Below, one piece after another: positions 1 through 59,649 of a stretch of 64,000 bases of DNA; the first letter of the stretch is position 1, and each line of letters begins with the position of its first letter. The notes beneath the pieces were generated by a model. It was given only the letters and a program-made list of their open reading frames with translations, was not told the origin of the DNA and searched no databases. The stretch is from Sphaerisporangium fuscum (GTDB lineage: Bacteria; Actinomycetota; Actinomycetes; Streptosporangiales; Streptosporangiaceae). The translations under genes were made by a program, and so were the position numbers. The stretch covers positions 1 through 64,000 of the forward strand of contig NZ_JAHDTF010000010.1 in the NCBI RefSeq assembly GCF_018531465.1, given 5' to 3'.

Positions 1-75
1 TGTGTTGTGCAATCCCCCCCGCGGGGGGGGGCGGGGCCCCCCCCCCGGGGGGGGGGGGGGGGCGGCTGCCCCCCC
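1..75. other. G/C homopolymer low-complexity sequence at the window edge
   Basis: Runs of 7 to 18 G or C follow each other with almost no other bases. No codon structure or functional motif is visible. A stretch like this at the very end of a sequence is most simply a contig-edge or assembly artefact, although a long G/C hairpin downstream of the neighbouring minus-strand gene could also cause the assembly to stop here. Confidence 0.6.
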
Positions 76-107
76 CGCTCCTCGAGGTCCAGGCCGGCCC
101 GGGCGGC

Positions 108-428
108 TCAGCAGCCGTCGGTCACGTAGCAGCCCTTCACGTACCACTTGCCGCTGTAGTAGGCGCCGCTGGTGGCCTTGCTCGTGCCGCCCACGGAGAC
201 CAGGCTGCCCGGCACGTAGGAGCAGGACGAGGTGGAGCAGAAGTAGCCGTAGACCCGGAAGTAGGTCTCGAGCCCGCTGGTGCACTTGACGCTCACGGAG
301 TGGTCGGTGCTCGCGGTCTTGGAGCAGCCGCTGACCGCGGCGGCGGGGGAGGCGGTGCCACCGACGAGGGCGGCGGTTCCGAGAACGATGCCGGCGACAC
401 CGGAAAGGATCTTTTTGTTCACGGGCAT
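108..428 (-). CDS. small secreted cysteine-rich protein, function unknown
   Basis: This 106-residue protein has a clear Sec signal peptide: positively charged N-terminus (MPVNKKIL), a hydrophobic core to about residue 25, and an Ala-rich cleavage region ending SPAAA around residue 31. The mature part is about 75 residues, rich in Ser, Tyr and Gly, with eight cysteines. Two sit in a CSTSSC pair, one is near the start (SGC) and two are at the C-terminal end (GCYVTDGC). That pattern suggests a disulfide-stabilised extracellular mini-protein. I do not recognise the family. Many actinomycetes secrete small proteins of this type, with roles including inhibitors, surface proteins and toxins. The gene stands alone on its strand. 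No catalytic motif is visible, so no activity is assigned. Confidence 0.75.
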   Translation of the reverse strand: MPVNKKILSGVAGIVLGTAALVGGTASPAAAVSGCSKTASTDHSVSVKCTSGLETYFRVYGYFCSTSSCSYVPGSLVSVGGTSKATSGAYYSGKWYVKGCYVTDGC

Positions 429-553
429 CCATGATCGCTTGTCGGGTCGCTCTTTACAACCTAGAGCGTGATTCTTGACAGATCGTCCCGTTCCGGTCCG
501 TCATGATGCTCTGAAGTACGGCGCCTCGAACGCTGTCCGCCGCAGCGGGACGC

Positions 554-1252
554 TCAAGGGCGGTCGCCGGTGGCGAGTTTGAGGCCGAGGGCGATGAGGA
601 CCGAGCCGACCAGGGTGTCCATGACCCGCTCGAAGTGGCGGTGGTCCACCAGGCGGGCCGTGCGGTCGGCCGTGATCGCGAAGACGAACTGGCCGGTCAG
701 ATTGGAGGCGGCCGCGATGAGCGTCAGGCCGATGATCAACAGCGTGGCGGTGCCGTCGTGGGCGGTGACGAACTGCGGCAGCAGCGCCGTGAAGAATGCC
801 GCGGCCTTGGGATTGAGCAGGTTGGTGGACAACCCCTGCCGAAAGAGCGCCCTGGACGAGGCGTGGGCTCCGGGGGAAGCGGCGTTCGTACCGGCCGCGG
901 AGACGCTGGTGGTGGCCGGGGCGGCGTCGGCGGGGCGAGGGCCGGCGGTGGCCGGGGCCGACGAGCGCCAGGCGCGCCACAGCATCCGCACTCCCATGTA
1001 GCCGAGGTACGCGGCTCCGGCCAGTTTGAGCACGGTGAAGGCCACCATGGAGGCCGCGAGGAGCGCGGCGATGCCCGCGCACGCCGCGAGCCCCCACAGC
1101 AGGAGACCCGCCGCGCTGCCGAGGCCCGTCCGCACCCCCGCGCCCCACCCTTGGCGCATGGCGTTCCGCACCACCAGCGCGGTGTCAGGGCCAGGAGTGA
1201 TGGTGATCATCGCGACGATGCCGAGATAGGCGAGCAGTGCCTCACGAGTCAT
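554..1252 (-). CDS. LysE/RhtB-family amino-acid exporter
   Basis: A 232-residue inner-membrane protein of the LysE/RhtB translocator family, whose members export amino acids or their derivatives. The N-terminus carries the family signature: a first hydrophobic helix followed by TPGPDTALVVRNAMRQG at about residues 19-35. Hydrophobic segments follow at about 42-62, 68-88, 145-165, 175-195 and 208-228, giving the usual six-helix layout. A long Ala/Thr/Ser-rich loop at about residues 95-135 is longer than usual for the family. The gene diverges from an EamA-type exporter, so two small metabolite exporters share one intergenic region. The substrate cannot be read from the sequence. Confidence 0.88.
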   Translation of the reverse strand: MTREALLAYLGIVAMITITPGPDTALVVRNAMRQGWGAGVRTGLGSAAGLLLWGLAACAGIAALLAASMVAFTVLKLAGAAYLGYMGVRMLWRAWRSSAPATAGPRPADAAPATTSVSAAGTNAASPGAHASSRALFRQGLSTNLLNPKAAAFFTALLPQFVTAHDGTATLLIIGLTLIAAASNLTGQFVFAITADRTARLVDHRHFERVMDTLVGSVLIALGLKLATGDRP

Positions 1253-1357
1253 GATCCGACTCTAGCGATGGATTGGTCTGCTGTTTCGTCGCTTATTGGC
1301 ACTTCCGACGCTCAAGCCCGGTGACCACGATGGCTTTCCGTGAAGGCGATACGAAAC

Positions 1358-2281
1358 ATGGCCGACCGGCGGCGCGGGATGATCGGTGCGGCGACCGCGA
1401 TGTTCCTGGTCGGCACGCTGACAGGGGTCTCTCCGGCCCTGCACGCCTACCCCTTGTACGGCGGGCAGGCCATTCGGTACGCGATCGCCGCCGCCGTGCT
1501 GTTCGCCGTCCTCCGCGTGAGAGGGCTGCCGGCGCTGCGGCCGACCCGCCGCGAGCTGGTGCTCGTCGTGCTGCTGGCCGTGGTCGGGCTGGTGGCGTTC
1601 AACGCGTTCGTCGTGGAGGCGACCCGGCACGCCGACCCGGCGACGGTCGGCACGATCGTGGCGACGGTCCCCGTCGTCCTGGCGGTGGTCACGCCGCTGA
1701 TGGAGGGCAGGCGCCCGACGTCGTACGTCGTGGTCGCGGCCGTCGTGGTGGCCACGGGGGCGGCCGTCACGATCGGCCTCGGCGGCGCGACGCTCGCCGG
1801 GGTGCTGCTGGCGTTCGGCGCGCTCGCCGGTGAGGTCGGATTCTCGCTCCTCGCCATCCCGTTGCTGCCGCGGTTCGGCGCGGTCCGGGTGGCGGCGTAC
1901 TCGGCCGCCGCGGCGGTGCCGCTCTTCCTGATCGCGGGGCTCGCCGAGGACGGCACCCGGCTGCTGCGCGTGCCCACGCCGTCCGAGGCGGCCGTGCTCG
2001 GCTACCTGGCCGTGGTGGTGACGGCGTTGGCGTTCTTCTGCTGGTACGACGCGCTGCCCCGACTCGGCGCCGACCGCGCGGGCCTGTTCTCCGGCTTCCT
2101 GCCGCTCGGCACGATCGTGGCCTCCATGGTGCTGGGCACCGGTCACCCGGGTCTGCCGGAGCTGCTGGGGGCCGCGCTGGTGATCGCGGGCCTGCTGCTG
2201 GGGTTTCGTCCTCGGCCGGCCCGCCGTGTCGCGGTGGAGGATCCCGGCGAGGGGGTTCGCAGCGCCGTGGACGCCCGCTGA
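1358..2281 (+). CDS. EamA/DMT-family transporter
   Basis: About 307 residues with ten predicted hydrophobic segments arranged as two five-helix EamA repeats, the layout of drug/metabolite transporters of the RhaT/YdcZ/EamA type. The first helix pair contains the usual Tyr-Gly-Gly-Gln-Ala-Ile-Arg-Tyr turn, and the second repeat begins near residue 145. The C-terminus ends in an Arg-rich tail. I prefer the ATG at 1358 because AAGG lies 11 bases upstream; an in-frame GTG at 1340 would add six residues. It is divergent from the LysE-type exporter. Members of this family export amino acids, purines or small metabolites, and the substrate here is unknown. Confidence 0.85.
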   Translation: MADRRRGMIGAATAMFLVGTLTGVSPALHAYPLYGGQAIRYAIAAAVLFAVLRVRGLPALRPTRRELVLVVLLAVVGLVAFNAFVVEATRHADPATVGTIVATVPVVLAVVTPLMEGRRPTSYVVVAAVVVATGAAVTIGLGGATLAGVLLAFGALAGEVGFSLLAIPLLPRFGAVRVAAYSAAAAVPLFLIAGLAEDGTRLLRVPTPSEAAVLGYLAVVVTALAFFCWYDALPRLGADRAGLFSGFLPLGTIVASMVLGTGHPGLPELLGAALVIAGLLLGFRPRPARRVAVEDPGEGVRSAVDAR

Positions 2282-2558
2282 TCGGACGGTGCGGGGATCC
2301 GGCCGCGCCGAATGGCCGGGAGCGGGGAGAGCGGGCCGCCGTAGCCGGTCGATTTCCGGTGATGCATTCACGGAATTCGGTGATCCGGTGGCGTGGGGGG
2401 TTCGGCGATTCGCCGGTGTCGCGTTCTCGGGATACCGCCTGGAAAATCTCTTTGCGGCGGTTTTTCGATTGGGTTTCCGGGTTTTCGGTTCACCGTCGGG
2501 CGGCTGGTGCGGCCGCCAGGGGCGACGTGCGTCGCGCGGTGCTCTGAACAGGGAGTTC
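2282..2558. other. intergenic, no gene seen
   Basis: Between the EamA gene and the repeat peptide gene the DNA has a moderately lower GC content and no reading frame with actinomycete codon bias. No promoter, hairpin with a T-tract or family motif is evident. Confidence 0.5.
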
Positions 2559-2687
2559 TCAGTCCCAGGTGGTGCCGGCGGTGCGGGAGTACGAGTCCCA
2601 GGTGGTGCCGGCGGTGCGGGAGCGGGAGTCCCAGGTGGTGCCGGCGGAGCGGAGGATGGAAATCGCGGAGGCGGCCGAGTTCTTCAT
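2559..2687 (-). CDS. 42-residue peptide with three TAGTTWD repeats, candidate RiPP precursor
   Basis: An ATG-to-TGA frame encodes 42 residues. Residues 1-13 (MKNSAASAISILR) form a short leader-like segment. The rest is three copies of an 11-residue unit: SAGTTWD at 14-20, TAGTTWD at 25-31 and TAGTTWD at 36-42, separated by SRSR and SYSR, with the stop straight after the third Asp. Third codon positions are almost all G or C, as in real genes of this genome, while the other frames over the repeat lack a sensible product. A purine-rich stretch (AAGAGACGAAGAA) directly precedes the ATG and can serve as ribosome binding site. Repeated Thr/Trp/Asp cores resemble multi-core precursors of ribosomally made modified peptides. 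No modifying enzyme, protease or dedicated exporter lies next to it; the EamA transporter downstream is convergent. I do not recognise a named family, and function is inference. Confidence 0.55.
   Translation of the reverse strand: MKNSAASAISILRSAGTTWDSRSRTAGTTWDSYSRTAGTTWD
2561..2652. repeat. 33-bp tandem repeat, 2.8 copies
   Basis: The sequence AGTCCCAGGTGGTGCCGGCG starts at 2561, 2594 and 2627, giving an exact 33-bp period with only a few substitutions between copies. The period is a multiple of three and the repeat is in frame with the minus-strand peptide gene, where it encodes the TAGTTWD units. Confidence 0.9.
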
Positions 2688-2993
2688 TTCTTCGTCTCTT
2701 TTCTTGAGGGATTTCGAATTCGTCCTTGCACAATCAACTCTGCGGCATTCGAAGCCCTAGAACCAGACGAATGGACGGCAGCAACCTGCACGCCGTTGGC
2801 CGCATCCTGCCACCTCTGTCCGGATGGCGTATTACCGCTGCTCAGGGCGGGGGAGCGGGCCGTGCGCGGGCGACGTGGCGGCGTGATCACCAGAGCCGGA
2901 CGGCCTCCGCCGCGAGAAGTGGCCGCGCATGTACATTGAGTGATCATCGTGTCGCCCGAGGGCGGGAGCGCCCCGGCTGTCTCGGAGGTCGTC
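2688..2993. other. intergenic region upstream of two divergent genes
   Basis: This stretch must hold the promoters of the repeat peptide (minus) and of the secreted protein at 2994 (plus). Two TTCGAA palindromes occur at 2714-2719 and 2749-2754. No convincing -35/-10 pair stands out on either strand, and no further gene is visible. Confidence 0.4.
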
Positions 2994-3497
2994 ATGATCG
3001 TCATATCCGCCGCCCGGCCCGTCCGCGGTCTCGTCGTCGCCGCGCTGGGCGCGAGCGCCCTGGCCCTGCCCGCCGGTGCCCACGCCGCCGCGGGGGTCCC
3101 CTGTACGGCCCCGGTGACCACCACCGGTTCCGTGCCGGGCGACACCGGGTCGAAGATCCCGGTCGGCAGCACCGGCCGGCCGGACGCCACCTGCGGCGAC
3201 GCCGCCCAGAAGACCGTGGACGGCACGCTCGCCTCCGTGCAGGACGACGTGAAGGGGTTCGAGGCCAAGGTCAAGAGCGAGTGGGGACGGCTGTGCGTAC
3301 TGGCCGGCCTGGGCGCGCAGGAGCTCAAGAACCACCTGGCGGCCATCGGCCTCGGTCCCGACGACAGGGCCCTGGACCAGCAGCCGAAGAGCGAGCAGGA
3401 CCGGCTCGACCTGGTCATCAGGTACGTGACCACCACCCAGTGCCCCGCCCCGGCCACCCCCGAACGCAACCCCGCCCCCCGCCCCGTCACCGACTGA
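2994..3497 (+). CDS. secreted protein of unknown function
   Basis: A 167-residue protein with an N-terminal signal peptide (MIVISAARPVRG, then a hydrophobic core ending in AGAHAAA near residue 30). The start at 2994 is favoured by GGAGG five bases upstream; an in-frame ATC-rich extension to 2940 would put 18 non-hydrophobic residues ahead of the signal peptide and is unlikely. The mature part has four Cys (VPCTAP, ATCGD, LCVLAG, TQCPAP), a central helical stretch predicted from Lys/Glu/Ala-rich sequence at about 75-135, and a Pro-rich tail. No conserved catalytic motif is recognised. It is monocistronic. An extracellular or envelope role is inferred only from the signal peptide. Confidence 0.7.
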   Translation: MIVISAARPVRGLVVAALGASALALPAGAHAAAGVPCTAPVTTTGSVPGDTGSKIPVGSTGRPDATCGDAAQKTVDGTLASVQDDVKGFEAKVKSEWGRLCVLAGLGAQELKNHLAAIGLGPDDRALDQQPKSEQDRLDLVIRYVTTTQCPAPATPERNPAPRPVTD

Positions 3498-3548
3498 CAC
3501 GCCCGGCCCCGGCTGAGCGGACCGACCCGGCCCCCTCTGAAGGACCGC

Positions 3549-3650
3549 CGGTCAGCGGCTGAACGGCCCTGGATACCGGCTGGGCGAGCCCGGCCCCCGC
3601 CTGAAGGACGGTCCGGTCAGCCGTTCAAGGGACCCGGTCGGCGGTTCAAG
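3549..3650. repeat. degenerate short repeats in the convergent intergenic region
   Basis: Three related 16-mers, CGGTCAGCGGCTGAAC (3549), CGGTCAGCCGTTCAAG (3614) and CGGTCGGCGGTTCAAG (3635), lie between the convergent genes ending at 3497 and 3704. The two longer stretches beginning CTGAAGGAC also repeat. They may form a diffuse terminator structure; no clean T-tract follows. Confidence 0.45.
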
Positions 3651-3703
3651 AGACGGCCGCCCGCCATCGCCTGGCGAGCGGCCGGCTTCGGTGTGCGGGA
3701 GGT

Positions 3704-4621
3704 TCAGGGCGAGGGGGTGCCCGCGGGCCGGGGGACGAGAGCGGGCCCGGCGTCCAGCAGGGCGGCCTCCGACAGCCTGGCGTTGGGCACGGTGGAGCCG
3801 AGCCTCGGCGTGTCGCACTGGGCCCTCTCGGCGCGGGTCATCGGGCCGGTCCGCTGGTAGACGCGGTCCGGGTTGACCGCCGAAGGGCTGTCGAGCGTGA
3901 CGTTCCTCGCCTCGTAGTCGTAGTCGCCCCACACCTTCGGCTTGGACTTCAGATCGAACACGATGCGGTGCCTGGCGTACTGGATCTCGATCCAGCTCGC
4001 CTCTCCGGGCAGCACCGTGGCCTCCACTTTCTTGACGTAAGGGCCTTCCACCCATTTCCCGTCGATCTGGACCGGCTTGGGGTTCTTCCAGATCCACTGC
4101 TCGTCGTATTTGGCCAGCAGGACGCCCTCGATCCATTTGATGGATTCGTTCTTCGGGCCGGTGGTCTTCTCGTCGTAGACGAGCCTGCCCTTGGCGTTGT
4201 CGATGCTCGTGGTCTGGAGCGGGATCGCCCGAGGGTCTTTCACGCTTTCTCTGGTGCAGTTTATGTAGACCTCTCCGATGCCCTTCGGCCTGCTCCAGTA
4301 TTCGGTGTTGCGTACCTCGGTCCAGGTGCATCTGCTCTGGTCGCTGCACCTGTCGATGACGTCCTCGACCGTGGCCGGTTTCGGGTTCTCGCCCTTGTAG
4401 GTGTACACGGCCTGGACGTCGGGCAGCGGCGGGATGCCCGGGAATCCGGGGGTGGCCCCGGCGGGGGACATCACCGCCACGGCGAGAGCGACCGGCACGG
4501 GGGACGCCAGGAGCGCGAGCCGTCCGCGTCGCGGCAGGTGACGCCTCCGATGCGCGGCCGGGGCGGGGTCGCCTTTCCCCGGAACGGGTTCCGGCGGGTG
4601 GAGTCCATGGTCGTTCGGCAA
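3704..4621 (-). CDS. secreted protein, paralogue of the next gene upstream; possible beta-rich pore-forming fold
   Basis: About 305 residues. The likely start is the TTG at 4621, seven bases after GAAAGGA, the same arrangement as the paralogous gene just upstream. An Arg-rich N-region and a hydrophobic stretch (LALLASPVPVALAVAV) form a signal peptide ending near ATPG. The mature protein begins with a CSDQSRCTW segment, then a GEVYINCT segment, then alternating beta-like sequence with PGEASWIEIQ and a late YQRTGPMT. These landmarks (Cys pair around SRCT, an INC cysteine, and Pro-x-x-x-x-W near the middle) match those of the upstream paralogue and of a group of Streptomyces secreted proteins that I associate loosely with aerolysin/ETX-MTX2-like folds. 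The fold assignment is inference; the paralogy is directly visible. Confidence 0.7.
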   Translation of the reverse strand: MPNDHGLHPPEPVPGKGDPAPAAHRRRHLPRRGRLALLASPVPVALAVAVMSPAGATPGFPGIPPLPDVQAVYTYKGENPKPATVEDVIDRCSDQSRCTWTEVRNTEYWSRPKGIGEVYINCTRESVKDPRAIPLQTTSIDNAKGRLVYDEKTTGPKNESIKWIEGVLLAKYDEQWIWKNPKPVQIDGKWVEGPYVKKVEATVLPGEASWIEIQYARHRIVFDLKSKPKVWGDYDYEARNVTLDSPSAVNPDRVYQRTGPMTRAERAQCDTPRLGSTVPNARLSEAALLDAGPALVPRPAGTPSP

Positions 4622-4680
4622 GGGTGCGTCCTTTCTGGCGGTGGAACTCGTGCCGTGCTTCGCCGAGCCGCTGCGGCGGG

Positions 4681-5679
4681 TCAGCGGGAACGGGGGGTCA
4701 GCCGGACGACCTTGCCGGCCTTCCAGTCCGCCCTCGCCGGCCCGATGTCGACGAGGCCGTCCGGCGACGGGGTGCCGGCGGCCGTTCCCGTGGTGCGGAG
4801 GCCGGGCGGCCGGGTGATGCGCCCGCACAGACCGGCGGGGACGACGGAGGTCATCGCGAAGATGAAACTCCGGTTCACCGTCGAGGGGCCCTGGGCGGCG
4901 ACGTTCTCGACGTGCTTGGAGGTGTCGCCGACCCTCAGCGCCCCCACGACCCGGGTGACGGCGTTCTTCCCGACGAACCACAGCATGTCGTTGGGCGCGA
5001 TCCTCGTCTTGTACGAGGTGGCCTCGGTGTTCTTGTCGGACCATTCGCGGCTGTAGGCCATCTTGAACGCCGCCATGAAGCTGATCTTCGTGCCGACGGT
5101 GTTGCTGCCCCTGGCGGTGCCCTTGGTCGCGTCCTGGCTGGTGTTCTTCTTGGTGATCTCGTCGTTCGGGCCCTTGTCCTTCGGCGCGGTGTGGTGCGTC
5201 GAGGAGTCCTCCTTGCCGTCCTGGTGGGAGGCCTCCGCGGTCCCCTCGGCCGTGGTGTCGGTGGTGCCGTCCGTGCTCACCTGCCCGCTGATCTCTCCGC
5301 TGATGTTGTCGGTGCTGCTCTGTTCGAGCGTGACCGTCCGGTCGACGTCGATGTCCTTCATCGAGCAGTTGATGATCGCGTTGCCCAGCGCCACGACGCC
5401 GTCGTAGTACTCACTGGAGGCCGACTTGTCGATGGTGAACGTGCAGCGGGAGGCGTTGGTGCACAATTTCGTCACCTCGCGGACGGACGGCAGCGGGGTG
5501 CTCCCGTCGTACGCCTTCGCGGCCGGCATCTCCGGAACCGGCGCTTCCCCGGAATCGGCCGCCGCGGCCGGCGTCACGGTGGACACGAGCACCACCAGGG
5601 AGGCGGCGGCGGCCGAAAGCGGCGATCGCCCCCGAGCGGGCCGGTGCGGCGTCGAATGGACATTCTGTTTCATCAGCAA
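4681..5679 (-). CDS. secreted protein with Ser/Thr-rich central segment; possible aerolysin-like pore former
   Basis: A 332-residue protein with a TTG start seven bases after GGAAAGGA and a signal peptide ending TPAAAA near residue 41. The mature part opens with LCTNASRCTFTID and GNAIINCSM, as in its downstream paralogue. It then has a strikingly Ser/Thr/Asp/Gly-rich block at about residues 120-175 (ISGEISGQVSTDGTTDTT and similar), followed by a segment with Lys, Trp and Thr that ends in IAPNDMLWFVG. Amphipathic Ser/Thr-rich hairpins flanked by beta strands are typical of aerolysin/ETX-MTX2 toxins, where they form the membrane-inserting barrel. That is family knowledge applied by resemblance, not proof. 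The gene lies 59 bases upstream of its paralogue and probably shares its transcript. Confidence 0.7.
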   Translation of the reverse strand: MLMKQNVHSTPHRPARGRSPLSAAAASLVVLVSTVTPAAAADSGEAPVPEMPAAKAYDGSTPLPSVREVTKLCTNASRCTFTIDKSASSEYYDGVVALGNAIINCSMKDIDVDRTVTLEQSSTDNISGEISGQVSTDGTTDTTAEGTAEASHQDGKEDSSTHHTAPKDKGPNDEITKKNTSQDATKGTARGSNTVGTKISFMAAFKMAYSREWSDKNTEATSYKTRIAPNDMLWFVGKNAVTRVVGALRVGDTSKHVENVAAQGPSTVNRSFIFAMTSVVPAGLCGRITRPPGLRTTGTAAGTPSPDGLVDIGPARADWKAGKVVRLTPRSR

Positions 5680-6057
5680 GATATCGTCCTTTCCGGCGGC
5701 AGGACCCGGAGGAATCCTTTTCCTGCCGGTGCGAACGATTATCCAGACGCCGGAGCCCCGGTCCCGGCTGCGGCGACCGTCGTGAGGGCGAGAATTGGCG
5801 GGGGACGGTGAAATTCCTCGCCAGGCGCCATCGGCCGTATTTCCGGAAAGGCCGGTCCTCGGTCAAAGCCCGCATGTGTCCGAGGTAATGAAGTTAGAGG
5901 CGCGCGGCCACTCCGACGATAGAAATCTACAATGTAAAGGCGCGCGACCGTAGCCCGGCGGAAGGCGCACGGGATCGGCCGGCTCGGTGAGGTGCCTGTG
6001 TGAGACCGGCTCAGCGCGGCGACGCGTCAGTGCGGGATCGGCCGGTGCGGCGAGATG
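5680..6057. other. intergenic, probable promoter and leader of the paralogous secreted pair
   Basis: This 378-base gap lies upstream of the minus-strand gene starting at 5679. It holds a direct repeat AGGCGCGCG(G/A)CC near 5898 and 5938 flanking an AT-rich core with TACAATGTA, which is a near-perfect palindrome. No additional gene is seen. The AT-rich core is the best place for a promoter reading to the left. Confidence 0.4.
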
Positions 6058-7200
6058 TCAGTGCGGGATCGGCTGGAGTTCGGCGACGTGGCGGATCAGG
6101 TCGCTGACGTGGACCACCCCCATGCAGCGTCCAACCTCGTCGACCACGACCAGGTCGTCGTACACGCGAGCCGCGTCCTTGCCCGCCACCTGCGTCGCGG
6201 CGATCGCGGGCGTGGTCTTGGGCACCACCCGTGGTGGGTCGGCCAGGCGGTGCGCCGGCTTCTTGGCGTGCAGGGCGTGCCCGTACGGCCCGGCGATGGA
6301 CAACAGGAACCGGCTGCGCTCCAGGCTGGCTCTCGGGCGCTGGTATTCGTCCACCAGGACGACGCTGGTGATCGACGGCTCGGTGCCGAAGGCCTCCACC
6401 ACGTCCTCGGCGGTCGCCAGCATGTCGAGGGTCACCGCCGGCAGGAGGAACTCCTGGACGCGCGGGCCCAGGTCGATCACCCACGGCTCGGGTTCGGCCG
6501 CCGGCACCGGCAGGGGGACGTGGACGCGTCCGTGCGAAGGCCGCCAGTCGAGCGGGGCGAGCAGTGGTCCCTGGGCGAGCCTTATGCCCCAGCCCCGCAC
6601 CGCCGCGAGCTGCCCCTCGTCGGTGACCTGCGGGGCGAGCACGTGGACGCCCATGCCCTTGGCCATCCGCGACACCGCTTCGCCGACGGCGTTGCGCCGA
6701 GCGTCCCGGGGAACCCGTTCGATCAGCTCGGGGGAGATCACCACCGCGTACGGCGAGGCGTCGGCGAGCAGGTCCAGCGGCACGTGGGAGGCGCCGACGC
6801 CGCCGACCGCGACGAGGTAGCCGATGGCCCGCAGGCCGTCCATCCCCGTCAGCAGGGCGGAACGGTCCTCCGTGGCGAAGTCGCCGGCGATGACGAGGAT
6901 CACCTCACGCGGGCGGCGGCTGGTCGCCCGCAGGGACTCGTGCAGGGGGGCGAGGGCGGCCGATCCCTGGATCACGGCCGCGGAGGGGACCGTCAGGACG
7001 AGGGGGAGCAGGGCCTCCTCGCGGGCGGCCGCGTACACGGCGGCCACCGTGGGGGAGACGTCACCGGACGGCCCGAACGGGGCGAACTCGGCGGCCGCCT
7101 CGACGGCGATCACCCCTCCGGAGTCGAGGTCGACGATCGGGAAGAAGGTCGCGGCGGAGTGGGAGGCTCCGTGGAGTCCGGACGAGTGCGAAGGGGCCAT
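6058..7200 (-). CDS. degenerate EAL-domain protein with C-terminal CBS-like region
   Basis: A 380-residue cytosolic protein. Residues 15-240 follow the outline of an EAL c-di-GMP phosphodiesterase domain: a FFPIVDLDSGGVIAVEAAAEF start, an IAGDF strand, a GVGAS strand and a WGIRLAQGPLLAP end. The diagnostic Glu-Ala-Leu is replaced by Glu-Ala-Ala, and several acidic metal ligands are not evident, so enzymatic activity is doubtful and a c-di-GMP-binding or scaffolding role is more likely. Residues 255-375 contain two hydrophobic beta-alpha units ending in DDLVVVDEVGRCMGVVHVSD, typical of a CBS module. EAL-CBS proteins occur across actinomycetes. The gene is alone on its strand with more than 500 bases upstream. 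Confidence 0.75.
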   Translation of the reverse strand: MAPSHSSGLHGASHSAATFFPIVDLDSGGVIAVEAAAEFAPFGPSGDVSPTVAAVYAAAREEALLPLVLTVPSAAVIQGSAALAPLHESLRATSRRPREVILVIAGDFATEDRSALLTGMDGLRAIGYLVAVGGVGASHVPLDLLADASPYAVVISPELIERVPRDARRNAVGEAVSRMAKGMGVHVLAPQVTDEGQLAAVRGWGIRLAQGPLLAPLDWRPSHGRVHVPLPVPAAEPEPWVIDLGPRVQEFLLPAVTLDMLATAEDVVEAFGTEPSITSVVLVDEYQRPRASLERSRFLLSIAGPYGHALHAKKPAHRLADPPRVVPKTTPAIAATQVAGKDAARVYDDLVVVDEVGRCMGVVHVSDLIRHVAELQPIPH

Positions 7201-7760
7201 CGAGGCTCCCAGGGATGCGGGGGCGGGTCACCGGGGGACGTGCGCGGTGCGGAACTCTAGTGCCGTACGCGCACGCGTCGATTCTCCTGCCACGGGCAGG
7301 GGAAGAGCGGCGCAGCGCAGGGAAATTCACCGATATTTCCCCCGATGTTGGAAGGGAAGAATTCTTTACGCAGAGTCGAGAAATCAGTCATTTACGTATC
7401 CGGGTTTCGGGCCATCCCTTCCGTGTCGGCAGTCCCCCGCCTCATGCGCATCCGGGTGTATCCACCATGCATCATCCACATACCACCCAAATCACGCGAT
7501 ACCGTGCCCGCCTGGAAGCGGATGGCCCGTGTGCGCCCGATGCCGTGCGATGTTCTGCCGCGCCTCGGTGGGAGCGCGTAGCCGGTTTGCGCGGTCCCGC
7601 GCGATATATCGCCATGCTGCCGTGAAAGTCCCTGATGTGCCGCCGCACCTCCGCCGGATACAACGACCTGCCATCGCGGTCGGCGCCGATATGAGGCTCC
7701 GCTGTGGCCGGCGCCGGTCGTGAGGCGCGGCGGCACGGTTCCTGCCGGGTCCGTTCCGGC
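7201..7760. other. long intergenic region, no convincing gene
   Basis: A 560-base gap with lower GC than its surroundings. Short frames exist on both strands but none has third-position GC bias, a ribosome site or a recognisable motif. It contains the perfect palindrome listed at 7601-7612. It could be the remnant of a lost gene. Confidence 0.5.
7601..7612. promoter_or_regulatory. perfect palindrome GCGATATATCGC
   Basis: A 12-bp perfect palindrome with the core CGATATATCG. The same ten-base core recurs at 44042-44051, there directly in front of the aldo/keto reductase gene. Two occurrences of such an AT-centred palindrome in very GC-rich DNA suggest an operator, but no gene start lies close to this copy. 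Confidence 0.35.
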
Positions 7761-8219
<459 letters not shown>

Positions 8220-8280
8220 CTTTAATGATCTGATTACGTTCTGTACAGGCCGGTTCATCAGGATGCCCTGACCAGTGCAG

Positions 8281-8303
8281 GGCGCATGCGCCGGCGGTAC
8301 AGT
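8281..8303 (+). promoter_or_regulatory. palindrome and -10 box of the TetR gene
   Basis: GGCGCATGCGCC (8281-8292) is a perfect 12-bp palindrome. TACAGT (8298-8303) is a good -10 hexamer placed six bases before the GTG at 8310, which fits a leaderless transcript. The palindrome would sit in the spacer of this promoter and could give autoregulation. Confidence 0.45.
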
Positions 8304-8309
8304 GCGAGC

Positions 8310-8963
8310 GTGACGGGAGGAACGGCCCAGACCGGGCGGGCGGCTTCACGTGGGCGCATCGACAAGCGGCGGGCGATCCTGGACGCCGCCTTCACCGTGT
8401 TCGCCCGCCGGGGCTACTCCGAGGCGTGCGTGCAGGAGATCGCCGAGGAGGCGGGCGTCGCCAAGCTGACGGTCTACAACCACCTTCACGACAAGGAGAA
8501 CCTGTTCCGGCACGCCCTGGAGGCGGCGGCCGAGGTCGTGGCCGCCGAGAACCTCGCCGTCGTCGAACGGCTGCGCGAGCCGGGCGACGACCTGCGCGCC
8601 GCCTTGGAGGACGTCGCCTACCGGATGCTCCGGGTCTGCTCCAGTGAGCGCTCGCGATCACTGCGCTGGCTGACCTACGCCCAGGTGGCCCGTTTCCCCG
8701 ACATCATCGAGATCGTCCAGGGTCGTACCTCGCGAGGGCTGGCCGAGGCGCTGGCCGACAGGCTGGCCCGGCTCTCCCTCTCCGGACGCCTACGGCACTG
8801 CGACCCCGCCCAGGCCGCGGAGCACTTCCTGGCCCTGCTCACCGCCCCCATGGAGACACGCTCCCGCCTCGGCACCCGCAAGGTCCCGTCCACGGAGACC
8901 CGCCAGGTGGCCACGGCCGCGGTCGACACGTTCCTGAGAGCCTACGGCCCACCGACGACCTGA
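8310..8963 (+). CDS. TetR/AcrR-family transcriptional regulator
   Basis: About 217 residues. The N-terminal TetR DNA-binding domain is clear: KRRAILDAAFTVFARRGY, then VQEIAEEAGVAKLTVYNHLHDKENLF with the recognition helix LTVYNHL. The C-terminal helical domain binds an unknown ligand. The GTG at 8310 is preferred over the ATG at 8286 because a TACAGT -10 box ends six bases before it, making a leaderless start likely, and because the ATG lies upstream of that box. It is divergent from the Dabb-domain gene, with two inverted repeats in the shared region, so it probably represses itself and that gene. Ends eight bases from the convergent acVLRF1 gene. Confidence 0.88.
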   Translation: MTGGTAQTGRAASRGRIDKRRAILDAAFTVFARRGYSEACVQEIAEEAGVAKLTVYNHLHDKENLFRHALEAAAEVVAAENLAVVERLREPGDDLRAALEDVAYRMLRVCSSERSRSLRWLTYAQVARFPDIIEIVQGRTSRGLAEALADRLARLSLSGRLRHCDPAQAAEHFLALLTAPMETRSRLGTRKVPSTETRQVATAAVDTFLRAYGPPTT

Positions 8964-8970
8964 CCGCCGC

Positions 8971-9666
8971 CTACGGAGCGGGGTCGAGGAGGCGGATACG
9001 GACGGCGCGGAAGGTCTTGGGGGTCTCCTGGAGGACGGCCAGCCGGGGGTCGGGCACGTCCAGGAACGGCGGCGTCTCAAGCGCGAAGACGGCTTCCAGT
9101 CGCCGGTCTGCGCGCAGGGCGTCGACCGCGCGGCGATCTCCTCCGAGGACGACCGCGTCCAGCGCGTCCACCTGGGGCACCAGCACGCGTACGGCCACCT
9201 CGGCCGCCGCCCGTGACGCCTCGCCCGCCTGCTTCTCCCTCCGCCGGGCGAAGCGCTGCTGCGACCAGCCGCCCGCCGCGCTGCGGCCGTGGACGAGCCG
9301 CGAACCGACCTTGGACGTGATCAGCCGTTCCCCTTCGAACACACCTGCCGCGTAGCCGCCGAGCCGGACGAGAAGAACACCTATCCGGCGCTCGGTGTCG
9401 GCGTGTGCCACCAGGGCGCGCAGCACGACGGCCCCGGCCGCGGGCTCGCCGGTCTCCGGGGGTGGCGAAGGGACTTCGGGTAGCGGAGGAAAGGGCACAT
9501 GCAGTTCCGCGACCGCGCCGTCGGTGGCCCGCACCCGTACGACGTCACCTGAGGTGTCGATCTTCGCGGCTCCATGCCGCTCGACGAACCTGCCGAGCCA
9601 GCCCTCGAGCCGCTCCGGGCCGACCGCGACCCATCGCCCCCCACCTGCCGCCGGTCGTCCTGCCAT
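8971..9666 (-). CDS. acVLRF1 family peptidyl-tRNA hydrolase (ribosome quality control)
   Basis: A 231-residue actinobacterial Vms1-like release factor. The diagnostic loop is GGWSQQRFARRRE at about residues 132-144, preceded by SRLVHGRSA. In eukaryotic Vms1/ANKZF1 and eRF1 the corresponding GGQ-type loop, with a catalytic Gln, releases the nascent chain from peptidyl-tRNA. Here GGW-SQQ keeps the adjacent glutamines. The C-terminal half follows the eRF1 domain-2/3 outline (VDALDAVVLGGDRRAVDAL, then a Pro/Asp-rich end). The role is hydrolysis of peptidyl-tRNA on split or stalled ribosomes in the cytosol. The N-terminal 75 residues are Pro/Glu-rich. Monocistronic and convergent with the TetR gene. 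Confidence 0.85.
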   Translation of the reverse strand: MAGRPAAGGGRWVAVGPERLEGWLGRFVERHGAAKIDTSGDVVRVRATDGAVAELHVPFPPLPEVPSPPPETGEPAAGAVVLRALVAHADTERRIGVLLVRLGGYAAGVFEGERLITSKVGSRLVHGRSAAGGWSQQRFARRREKQAGEASRAAAEVAVRVLVPQVDALDAVVLGGDRRAVDALRADRRLEAVFALETPPFLDVPDPRLAVLQETPKTFRAVRIRLLDPAP

Positions 9667-43665: not shown

Positions 43666-43893
43666 GCGAGGGGCGCGGCGGTGGTCTGAGGAGGAGGGAG
43701 GGTGAGGTACGAGCCCGTACGACGACGAAGGCCGCCGCCTCAAGGAGCGCCCCTCGCCGCCGAGCGAAGGCGAGGCAGTCAAGCACGGGCGCGGCGGTGG
43801 TCTGAGGAGGAGGGAGGGTGAGGTACGAGCCCGGACGACGACGAAGGCCGCCGCCTCAAGGAGCGCCCCTCGCCGCCGAGCGGAGCGAGGCAA
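43666..43893. repeat. tandemly duplicated hairpin-forming intergenic element
   Basis: Two nearly identical copies of about 105 bases start at 43671 and 43787, a 116-base period. They differ at one base (CCCGTACG versus CCCGGACG) before diverging at the ends. The first copy is flanked by GCGAGGGGCGC (43666-43676), which pairs with GCGCCCCTCGC (43747-43757), and inner GGCGG/CCGCC and CTGAGG/CCTCA arms continue the stem; the tip has GTACG-AGCC-CGTAC. The second copy keeps most of these pairs. No gene is present. It looks like a REP/MITE-like element or a pair of structured RNAs. Confidence 0.7.
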
Positions 43894-58323: not shown

Positions 58324-59561
58324 TCCTTGGCCAGCAGGTCGTTCATCGCGGCCGCCAGATCCTTGGCCGCCTGCTCGACGGGCACCTCGCCGGTCCAGGC
58401 CTTGGTGAGGTAGCTCAGCTCGGCCTCGTTCCACGCGGCGGTGTTCTGCGAGACGGGGAACGGGACGGCGTCGGGCACCTCGTCGATGAAGGTCTGGAGC
58501 TTGAACTCGGGGTGCGCCTTGACCCACTCGCCCTGGGTGCCGGTGTAGGCCGGGATGGGGCCCTTCGTGCCCAGGATGTCGGCGGCCTGCTTGGAGCCGA
58601 GGAACTTGGCGAACTCCCAGGCCTCCTTGGGGTGCGCCGTCCTGGCCGACACGACGTTGGCGACGCCGTGGATGATCGTGGCCTTCTTCTCCCCCTTGGG
58701 CAGCGGCGCCACGTCCACCTTGTCCTTGGTGTAGTCGTTGGTGGAGAACTCGGTGACGTTCCACGACCCGCCCCAGTACATGGCGATCTTGCCGGCCTCG
58801 AACAGCTGGATCGGCGTGGTGTCGGTCATGGTCTTCAGGTCGGGCGACTGCTTGTTCTTCAGCAGGTCGGTCCAGAACCGCAGGCCCTCGATGGTCTTCG
58901 GGTCGTCGTACCCGGACTTCTTGCCGCCCGGGGAGATCACCCAGCCGCCGGCCTGCATGATCGTGTTGTACTCGTACTCCTGGAAGCTGGTCAGCTCGGC
59001 CGCGGTGCCGTACACGCCCTTGGCGGGGTCGGACAGCTTGGCCGCCGCCTGCTTGAAGTCCGCCCAGGTCCAGTCGGCGGCCGGGTGCGGCACGCCCTTG
59101 GCGTCGAAGAGCTTCTTGTTGTACCAGACCCCGATGGTGTCCATGTCCTTGGGCAGGCCGTACAGCTTGCCCTGGTAGGTGTACAGATCCACCAGAGGCT
59201 TGGGGTACACCGAGGTGTCGACCTGCTCCTCGATCGGGCGGATCACGTCGTTGGCGGCGTAGAGCTGGAAGTTCGGGCCGTTCATCCAGAAGACGTCGGG
59301 CGTGGCGCCGCCGGTGACGGCCGCCTTCATCTTGGTCCAGTAGTCGGTCCACGGCGTCAGCTGCACGTTGATCGTGATATTCGGGTGAGTCCTGGTGAAC
59401 TCCCGCGCCAGTTCCTCCATCACCGGCTTCTGGTTGTTGTCCCACAAGGCGTAGGACAGCGCGACCTTCTCCTGCGCTGCCGGCTCGCCACCCGACGAGC
59501 AGGCGGAAAGGGCCATCGCCGCACCCAACGCGGCCGCACCCGCCCGCGCCCATGTCCGCAT
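58320..59561 (-). CDS. sugar ABC transporter substrate-binding lipoprotein
   Basis: A 413-residue family-1 extracellular solute-binding protein. The signal peptide carries the lipobox LSAC with the lipidated Cys at residue 21 when started at 59561. Landmarks are LSYALWDNNQKPVMEELAREFTRTHPNITINVQ, DVFWMNGPNFQLYAAND, WADFKQAAAKLSDPAKGVYGTA and AMYWGGSWNV. It binds a mono- or oligosaccharide outside the membrane for the two permeases encoded next. GAGGAG precedes the ATG at 59561, better than the further upstream in-frame start at 59609. It lies just downstream of the ROK repressor gene on the same strand. Confidence 0.92.
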   Translation of the reverse strand: MRTWARAGAAALGAAMALSACSSGGEPAAQEKVALSYALWDNNQKPVMEELAREFTRTHPNITINVQLTPWTDYWTKMKAAVTGGATPDVFWMNGPNFQLYAANDVIRPIEEQVDTSVYPKPLVDLYTYQGKLYGLPKDMDTIGVWYNKKLFDAKGVPHPAADWTWADFKQAAAKLSDPAKGVYGTAAELTSFQEYEYNTIMQAGGWVISPGGKKSGYDDPKTIEGLRFWTDLLKNKQSPDLKTMTDTTPIQLFEAGKIAMYWGGSWNVTEFSTNDYTKDKVDVAPLPKGEKKATIIHGVANVVSARTAHPKEAWEFAKFLGSKQAADILGTKGPIPAYTGTQGEWVKAHPEFKLQTFIDEVPDAVPFPVSQNTAAWNEAELSYLTKAWTGEVPVEQAAKDLAAAMNDLLAKE

Positions 59562-59619
59562 CCCTGGTCTCCTCACGAACGAGGCGCGCTCGGCGCCTCG
59601 GTGCTCCACAACTTGGGAT

Positions 59620-59649
59620 TAATCATGGAGTCCAGTGAAATTAAGTCAA
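59620..59649 (-). promoter_or_regulatory. promoter of the sugar ABC operon, with TTAAT/ATTAA half-sites
   Basis: On the minus strand TTGACT (59644-59649) and TGATTA (59620-59625) are separated by 18 bases, a good promoter that overlaps the end of the ROK gene. TTAAT and ATTAA half-sites flank it and resemble the CTAATAATTAG palindrome between the ROK gene and the dehydrogenase, so both may bind the ROK protein. Confidence 0.5.

Follow-up and report, generated by a model that had tools for sequence, protein, structure and literature searches.

The window, a stretch of 64,000 nucleotides from Sphaerisporangium fuscum, carries a short precursor gene on the minus strand at 2559..2687, recognised by its open reading frame, its homologues, and the conservation of its spacing and units. 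The gene comprises 42 codons and a TGA stop, and the peptide encoded from 2687 to 2559 is MKNSAASAISILRSAGTTWDSRSRTAGTTWDSYSRTAGTTWD. An ATG start and a short leader without a strong hydrophobic segment (residues 1-14, MKNSAASAISILRS; 2646..2687) are followed by three GTTWD cores spaced 11 residues apart, at 2628..2642, 2595..2609 and 2562..2576, the third of which abuts the stop codon. The initial annotation had described a 42-residue gene at this place without giving a strand, and most of its details held. The 33-bp period was recovered by Tandem Repeats Finder (period 33, 2.8 copies, 93% matches), TGA stands directly after the last Asp as it had stated, and the strong GC bias at the third position corresponds to 41 of 42 codons ending in G or C. 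It had read three TAGTTWD repeats; this is correct for cores 2 and 3, whereas core 1 reads SAGTTWD. On the 5' side of the ATG, on the same strand, lies an A/G-rich stretch (2688..2706), similar in relatives and presumed to be the ribosome-binding region. Further upstream lie, in this order, a conserved GCCGCAGAGTTG box (2734..2745), a CTGGTTC box (2760..2766) and a presumed operator, TGGCAGGAT-N19-TTGCTGCC (2777..2812), with one mismatch to the element TGGCAGSAA-N19-TTGCTGMC.

Pfam matches were obtained for six of the 10 genes nearest to the window copy (LysE-type and EamA-type transporters, EAL/CBS, Dabb, TetR and VLRF1 release factor). No peptide-modifying enzyme was found by Pfam among these 10 genes, four of which had no match, in agreement with the earlier remark that none is adjacent. 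Around the window copy, Rfam gave no hit at or above a family's gathering score. Positions 75-9500 of the window recur with 100% identity on a second contig of this assembly (C17, 10000-19425), so that two copies counted may be one; the identity reflects either assembly redundancy or a long perfect repeat. The contamination estimate of the assembly is 6.95. Low-complexity C/G runs occupy 14-63 at the contig start, just outside the C17-identical stretch, and a 116-bp direct repeat (1.9 copies, 97% matches) lies at 43671-43892. A plus-strand frame at 59455-59622 ends in STTWD before its stop; no version of the element occurs there within three mismatches, and the frame is probably due to chance.

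The best protein match in other genomes of the genus had an E value of 1.5e-15. In the own genome, a protein search gave further copies on contigs C5 (four), C13 (two), C57 (one) and C43 (one), and two additional ORFs with a GTTWD end lie on C69 and C23. The C43 copy (L031, 6199-6348) is decayed, as a TAG at the Trp codon cuts its third core. In a DNA pattern scan, GTTWD pairs, defined as two codings 6-36 nt apart, were present in 16 of 341 genomes of the taxonomic family and the reversed pattern in none. A scan of named genomes yielded 60 stretches; those in Streptosporangiaceae belong to Sphaerisporangium, Streptosporangium, Microbispora and Sphaerimonospora, and the remaining matches are spread across unrelated phyla. 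At the fetched loci, successive GGNACNACNTGG motifs were separated by 125 distinct spacings, every one of them a multiple of three. GTTWD occurred in 228 of 229 core units, and 19 of the 20 DNA differences among 16 distinct units fell at codon position 3, both results being favoured by the pre-selection of units with at least four of the five residues matching. Across 138 ungapped pairs of 42-residue copies from different genomes, the median dN/dS was 1.21, which indicates that the part outside the core is unconstrained, and in unlinked copies of one genome the pentapeptide is constant while linkers and leaders drift. Judged by the spacings and these substitution patterns, selection on the GTTWD cores acts at the protein level.

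A chance repeat was set aside in view of the homologues, the scan counts against the reversed pattern, and the spacings. A mobile-element relic was set aside as well, since the core is conserved as protein across several genera. The initial annotation had named two outcomes that would speak against it, namely a lack of homologues and conservation of the DNA without the frame. Homologues exist in the genus and in other genera, and the spacings and third-position differences show that the frame is kept. Its suggestion of an undescribed family also stands. Three peptides tested against Pfam and NCBIfam models gave no significant match, and no description of the peptide family, its motifs or its pairing with a regulator was found in our literature searches, outside which subscription papers and preprints mostly fell.

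Recognisable versions of the TGGCAGSAA-N19-TTGCTGMC element precede a set of 61 precursors, starting about 115-130 nt 5' of the ATG, with a CTGG box and then a GCAGAGTTG box downstream. In total, 93 sites combined an AGTTG-like box with no more than one mismatch, and 35 were left once near copies had been removed. The element also precedes aromatic and specialised-metabolism genes. By Pfam, the targets include prephenate dehydrogenase (PF02153), tryptophan 2,3-dioxygenase (PF03301), DAHP synthase (PF00793) and CMD (PF02627), and other representatives are an AMP-binding ligase, an MFS transporter, a short-chain dehydrogenase, a methyltransferase and an FAD-NAD(P) protein. A further target is c1, which encodes a protein of about 90 residues, at some loci with a short GTTWD-ending ORF in between. 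The c1 family (L169, 7440-7706, and relatives) has no Pfam match and a predicted ferredoxin-like fold, and in G009 c1 forms one ORF together with a GTTWD. The tryptophan-related and aromatic targets, the Trp kept in all core variants and the few GTTWD-ending ORFs before c1 would suit a Trp-codon leader that controls aromatic metabolism by Trp sensing or by ribosome-mediated attenuation. However, many copies have unrelated flanks directly after the stop, all five core residues are conserved and not only Trp, and Rfam gave no match at gathering score near the window copy. We consider such a leader hardly credible, and the attenuator was set aside on the basis of the flanks and the Rfam result.

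The distribution of the element is tied to a regulator gene, c10. Matches to c10 at E up to 1e-60 occur in 46 of the 341 genomes, and 41 of these hold a strong orthologue (E below 1e-140) in one copy each. The exact element was found in 34 of the 341 genomes, all among the 41 with strong c10, and the reversed control gave one match; the exact element is absent from all 295 genomes that have no c10 and from the five with weak c10. The hypergeometric p value of this co-occurrence is 4.9e-37, or 5e-13 when stratified by genus with genus counts taken by hand from the element genome list. Seven strong-c10 genomes have no exact element (G043, G053, G226, G229, G250, G253 and G270), among which G253 shows a near-element with an 18-nt spacer and G043 and G053 show near-elements with two mismatches. 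All 16 GTTWD-pair genomes contain c10 (p 8.9e-16, relatedness ignored). For four c10 genomes whose locus held no precursor, the single exact element at another genomic position revealed, in all four cases, an unseen NTWP-repeat gene with a hydrophobic leader. Within the family, the exact element and GTTWD pairs are limited to c10 genomes, and this co-occurrence shows that c10, the element and the precursor belong to one system. The own genome also holds a second, distant homologue of c10 (C33, 33955-34875; L242, L247; E 3e-55), which has neither an element nor a TW-repeat peptide nearby.

The c10 protein, 328 aa in most members, is predicted to consist of a TrmB-like winged helix, a PLD-fold domain and a LuxR-type HTH. 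In a structure model with a pTM of only 0.47, the middle domain adopts the TrmB effector fold. The c10 locus recurs with c20, MarR proteins (at some loci), c10, a precursor (at many), an epimerase (at some), an acyl-CoA carboxyltransferase (PF01039) and c1, and further with an Sfp-type PPTase (PF01648), a hydrolase and two membrane proteins; these gene calls came from a codon-usage script, and their starts may be off. At many loci, for example in G006, G149, G215 and G264, the precursor adjoins c10 or nearly so. The dispersed precursors are not adjacent to c10, and the window copy lies far from it.

Where c10 loci lack close GTTWD pairs, the promoter precedes precursors with GNTWP/NTWP, GNTWG, GTTWP or GNGWG repeats. 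G053 has a single NGQWG behind the promoter and G146 has widely spaced GTTWD. In all, a precursor was found in 37 of the 41 strong-c10 genomes, and none was found in the fetched stretches of G226, G229, G250 and G270. At the Streptosporangium c10 loci L261-L263, precursor-like ORFs beside c10 have cores that look degenerate (GTTRD, DTPWG), and the dispersed copies are intact. On the c10 tree, the split between GTTWD and N-type peptides needs one change over 36 labelled rows, where four rows first labelled as having none were relabelled NTWP after their precursors were found and G053, G226, G229, G250 and G270 were unlabelled; genus needs 11 changes, and three genera hold both types. On the trees of c8, c3 and c20, peptide type can likewise be explained by a single change, and on that of c6 by two. 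The fit of these neighbour trees indicates that the genes of the locus are inherited together as a unit; the pairing therefore lies within the locus and does not speak for direct binding. Accordingly, co-evolution specific to c10 was dropped. On the one hand, c10 identity is 0.73-0.74 between types versus 0.84 and 0.81 within types across genera; on the other hand, c8 identity, unlike that of c10, is 0.80 between types versus 0.79 and 0.85 within. Eight c10 columns are type-diagnostic in 32 genomes, and five of them lie in the PLD-fold domain. This larger divergence and the diagnostic columns are suggestive only.

These variants bear on whether the peptide might be a secreted effector or antimicrobial, a mere output of the c10 regulon without a signal role. 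Its operator is common to other outputs and its copy number is high in some genomes, as would be expected of an effector. However, the near-invariant core, the drifting linkers and the locus-tied core variants fit a recognition motif better, and at many loci the precursor adjoins the regulator itself, so that we regard an effector as very unlikely.

Precursors occur in two forms. A hydrophobic N-terminal segment is present in 34 of 74 listed precursors, with a best 17-residue mean hydropathy of 1.55 to 2.35. In these long forms, positive charge precedes the segment, and acidic repeats with 0-2 K/R follow it. The other 40, from six genomes including the own, have no such segment (-0.64 to 0.41), and the window copy scores 0.36. 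The list of 74 is the set of 61 minus the duplicate contig plus 14 variants; it contains neither truncated copies nor the short ORFs with a single terminal GTTWD in front of c1, which also have no hydrophobic segment. The window copy has 42 aa and the others listed have 31-142 aa, some exceeding 100. G005 holds both forms; they begin alike (MTNSTISPVNF and MTNQTVSPVNF), and the short form may have lost its hydrophobic part in frame. The leaderless copies, common in six genomes, and the operator shared by all copies, which fits a feedback loop, would allow that the peptide stays in the cell (short form) or at the membrane (long form), where its GxxWx unit would bind c10 or a partner as an intracellular co-regulator. 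Against this stand the long forms: by the positive-inside rule, their charge pattern would place the repeats outside the cell. We therefore hold such a co-regulator to be quite unlikely.

We also considered a multi-core RiPP precursor, in which GxxWx units would be modified by c20 or a distant enzyme and released as a natural product. Like graspetides and other multi-core RiPPs, the family has repeated short cores within one short ORF, and the c10 locus holds a PPTase and other biosynthetic genes. A YcaO-like gene, c20, stands beside c10 at many loci; YcaO-dependent RiPPs are marked by a YcaO protein in their locus. However, Pfam recognised YcaO in only four of 23 c20 members (best 7e-8), and the c20 profile matched no solved structure; c20 is a diverged YcaO-like gene, and peptide modification is possible. 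The 10 genes closest to the window copy, four of them without a Pfam match, showed neither an ATP-grasp ligase nor any other modifying enzyme, and the neighbours of the dispersed copies are mostly non-recurrent, which led us to set aside a graspedite-like or other RiPP with an adjacent enzyme; a distant enzyme is conceivable. GTTWD has both the Thr/Ser and the Asp/Glu of graspetide cores, whereas GNTWP, GNTWG and GNGWG have no Asp/Glu. Since GNGWG, from G139, contains no Thr, Ser, Cys, Asp or Glu, the residues used in graspetides and azoles are not the conserved feature. Typical RiPP leaders, moreover, differ from the hydrophobic segment of the long forms. We consider a RiPP unlikely. The initial annotation had offered a RiPP or a small signalling peptide; the signalling half is better borne out, given a partner regulator and a presumed operator recognised by co-occurrence, and the RiPP half is weak.

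Among known signalling systems, RRNPP pairs (Phr, NprX, PapR and others) are similar in their short precursor with a C-terminal core, possible intragenic repeats, and, at many loci, an adjacent regulator of 250-500 aa. PMC10075063 gives as their criteria a propeptide of 10-100 aa, Sec secretion, a receptor of 250-500 aa with TPR repeats, and adjacent genes. By these criteria, the lengths of the window copy and of c10 agree, although a receptor role of c10 is putative. A hydrophobic N-terminal segment that may serve Sec secretion is present in 34 of the 74 listed precursors and absent from the window copy, and adjacency holds at many c10 loci but not for dispersed copies, the window copy included. 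In contrast to RRNPP receptors, c10 has the TrmB/PLD/LuxR architecture, and its host belongs to Actinomycetota; Pfam, taken up to E 0.1, gave no TPR match for any of 33 c10 members. On this analogy, the best reading is that the c10-peptide system would work like RRNPP pheromone pairs but is not RRNPP. The predicted structure shares the winged helix and PLD-fold effector domain of TrmB-type regulators and, as in LuxR/NarL-type regulators, a C-terminal GerE HTH; c10 differs from TrmB-type regulators in adding this HTH and in its ligand, presumed to be a peptide and not a sugar. In the yeast alpha-factor precursor, an export signal stands ahead of pheromone copies that are arranged in tandem and separated by spacers, and the receptor is a membrane protein. 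The export signal and tandem copies are alike, but the eukaryotic host and membrane receptor differ, and it serves as an analogy only.

We consider that the window gene belongs to a multi-copy set of peptide-signal precursors in Streptosporangiaceae with c10 as the presumed sensor, a reading to which we assign a probability of roughly 0.55. As the family shares its promoter and partner regulator with specialised-metabolism genes, the peptide is probably a cell-to-cell signal of soil actinomycetes. This reading is based on c10 in all GTTWD-pair genomes, the restriction of the exact element to c10 genomes, the precursors to which the element led, their presence in most strong-c10 genomes and adjacency to c10 at many loci, the constant pentapeptide among drifting linkers, the hydrophobic segments with acidic repeats, and the TrmB effector fold of the c10 middle domain with its five diagnostic columns. 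Against it, we count that the window copy and 39 other listed precursors have no hydrophobic segment, that peptide type follows the whole locus, that four strong-c10 genomes have no precursor found, that the window copy is distant from c10 and has an operator mismatch, and that the c10 model has a pTM of 0.47.

In the mechanism we propose, c10 would bind the TGGCAGSAA-N19-TTGCTGMC element, and the hydrophobic segment would export the long-form precursor. Proteases would then free units centred on the pentapeptide, GTTWD here and GNTWP, GNTWG, GTTWP or GNGWG elsewhere. The peptide may re-enter the cell or be sensed indirectly to switch c10, the unit being a ligand of c10 or of a c10 partner. 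In turn, c10 would activate further precursor genes and an aromatic and specialised-metabolism regulon, with autoinduction expected because precursors carry the same element. As an outcome, aromatic precursors, PPTase and acyl-CoA carboxylation would be shifted toward a specialised product. In one group of Sphaerisporangium genomes, the own included, multi-repeat copies without the hydrophobic segment would have multiplied. The full scenario is more tentative: a ribosomal pentapeptide quorum sensing of Actinomycetota with secreted multi-core precursors, switchable pherotypes, a TrmB-PLD-LuxR sensor, a bipartite operator and a specialised-metabolism regulon, whose signal genes in Sphaerisporangium lost the export segment and multiplied as a promoter-plus-peptide cassette, could well be true, at somewhat less than even odds. 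According to PMC10075063, signals are typically enzyme-made small molecules in Actinomycetota and oligopeptides in Bacillota. If our reading is true, five-residue synthetic peptides would be a simple handle to wake silent gene clusters in metabolite-rich genera. Regulator, operator and target genes are all named, so that every step is testable, and in these genomes the promoter, and not the length, can serve to find genes of 30-50 codons.

Copies within a genome are alike over about 230-270 bp, from near TGGCAG to the stop codon, with unrelated flanks. Identities were 89.7-98.8% in six pairs of L028 (C5 of the own genome) and 91.8-98.4% in six pairs of L036 (C4 of G001), and stop codons differ between close copies. 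Similar blocks, with lower identity for some pairs, were seen in L034 (C141 of G008), and L033 has larger duplications of 0.3-1.5 kb. We infer that gene conversion between dispersed loci best explains the blocks of about 230-270 bp; alternatively, they may stem from a mobile promoter-plus-peptide cassette. L028, L034, L036 and L039 share a syntenic stretch, close to a Clp_N protein and two ABC transporters, in which several copies lie together. In L034 and L039, succinate dehydrogenase is located on the other side of this stretch, and the gene content between the copies varies.
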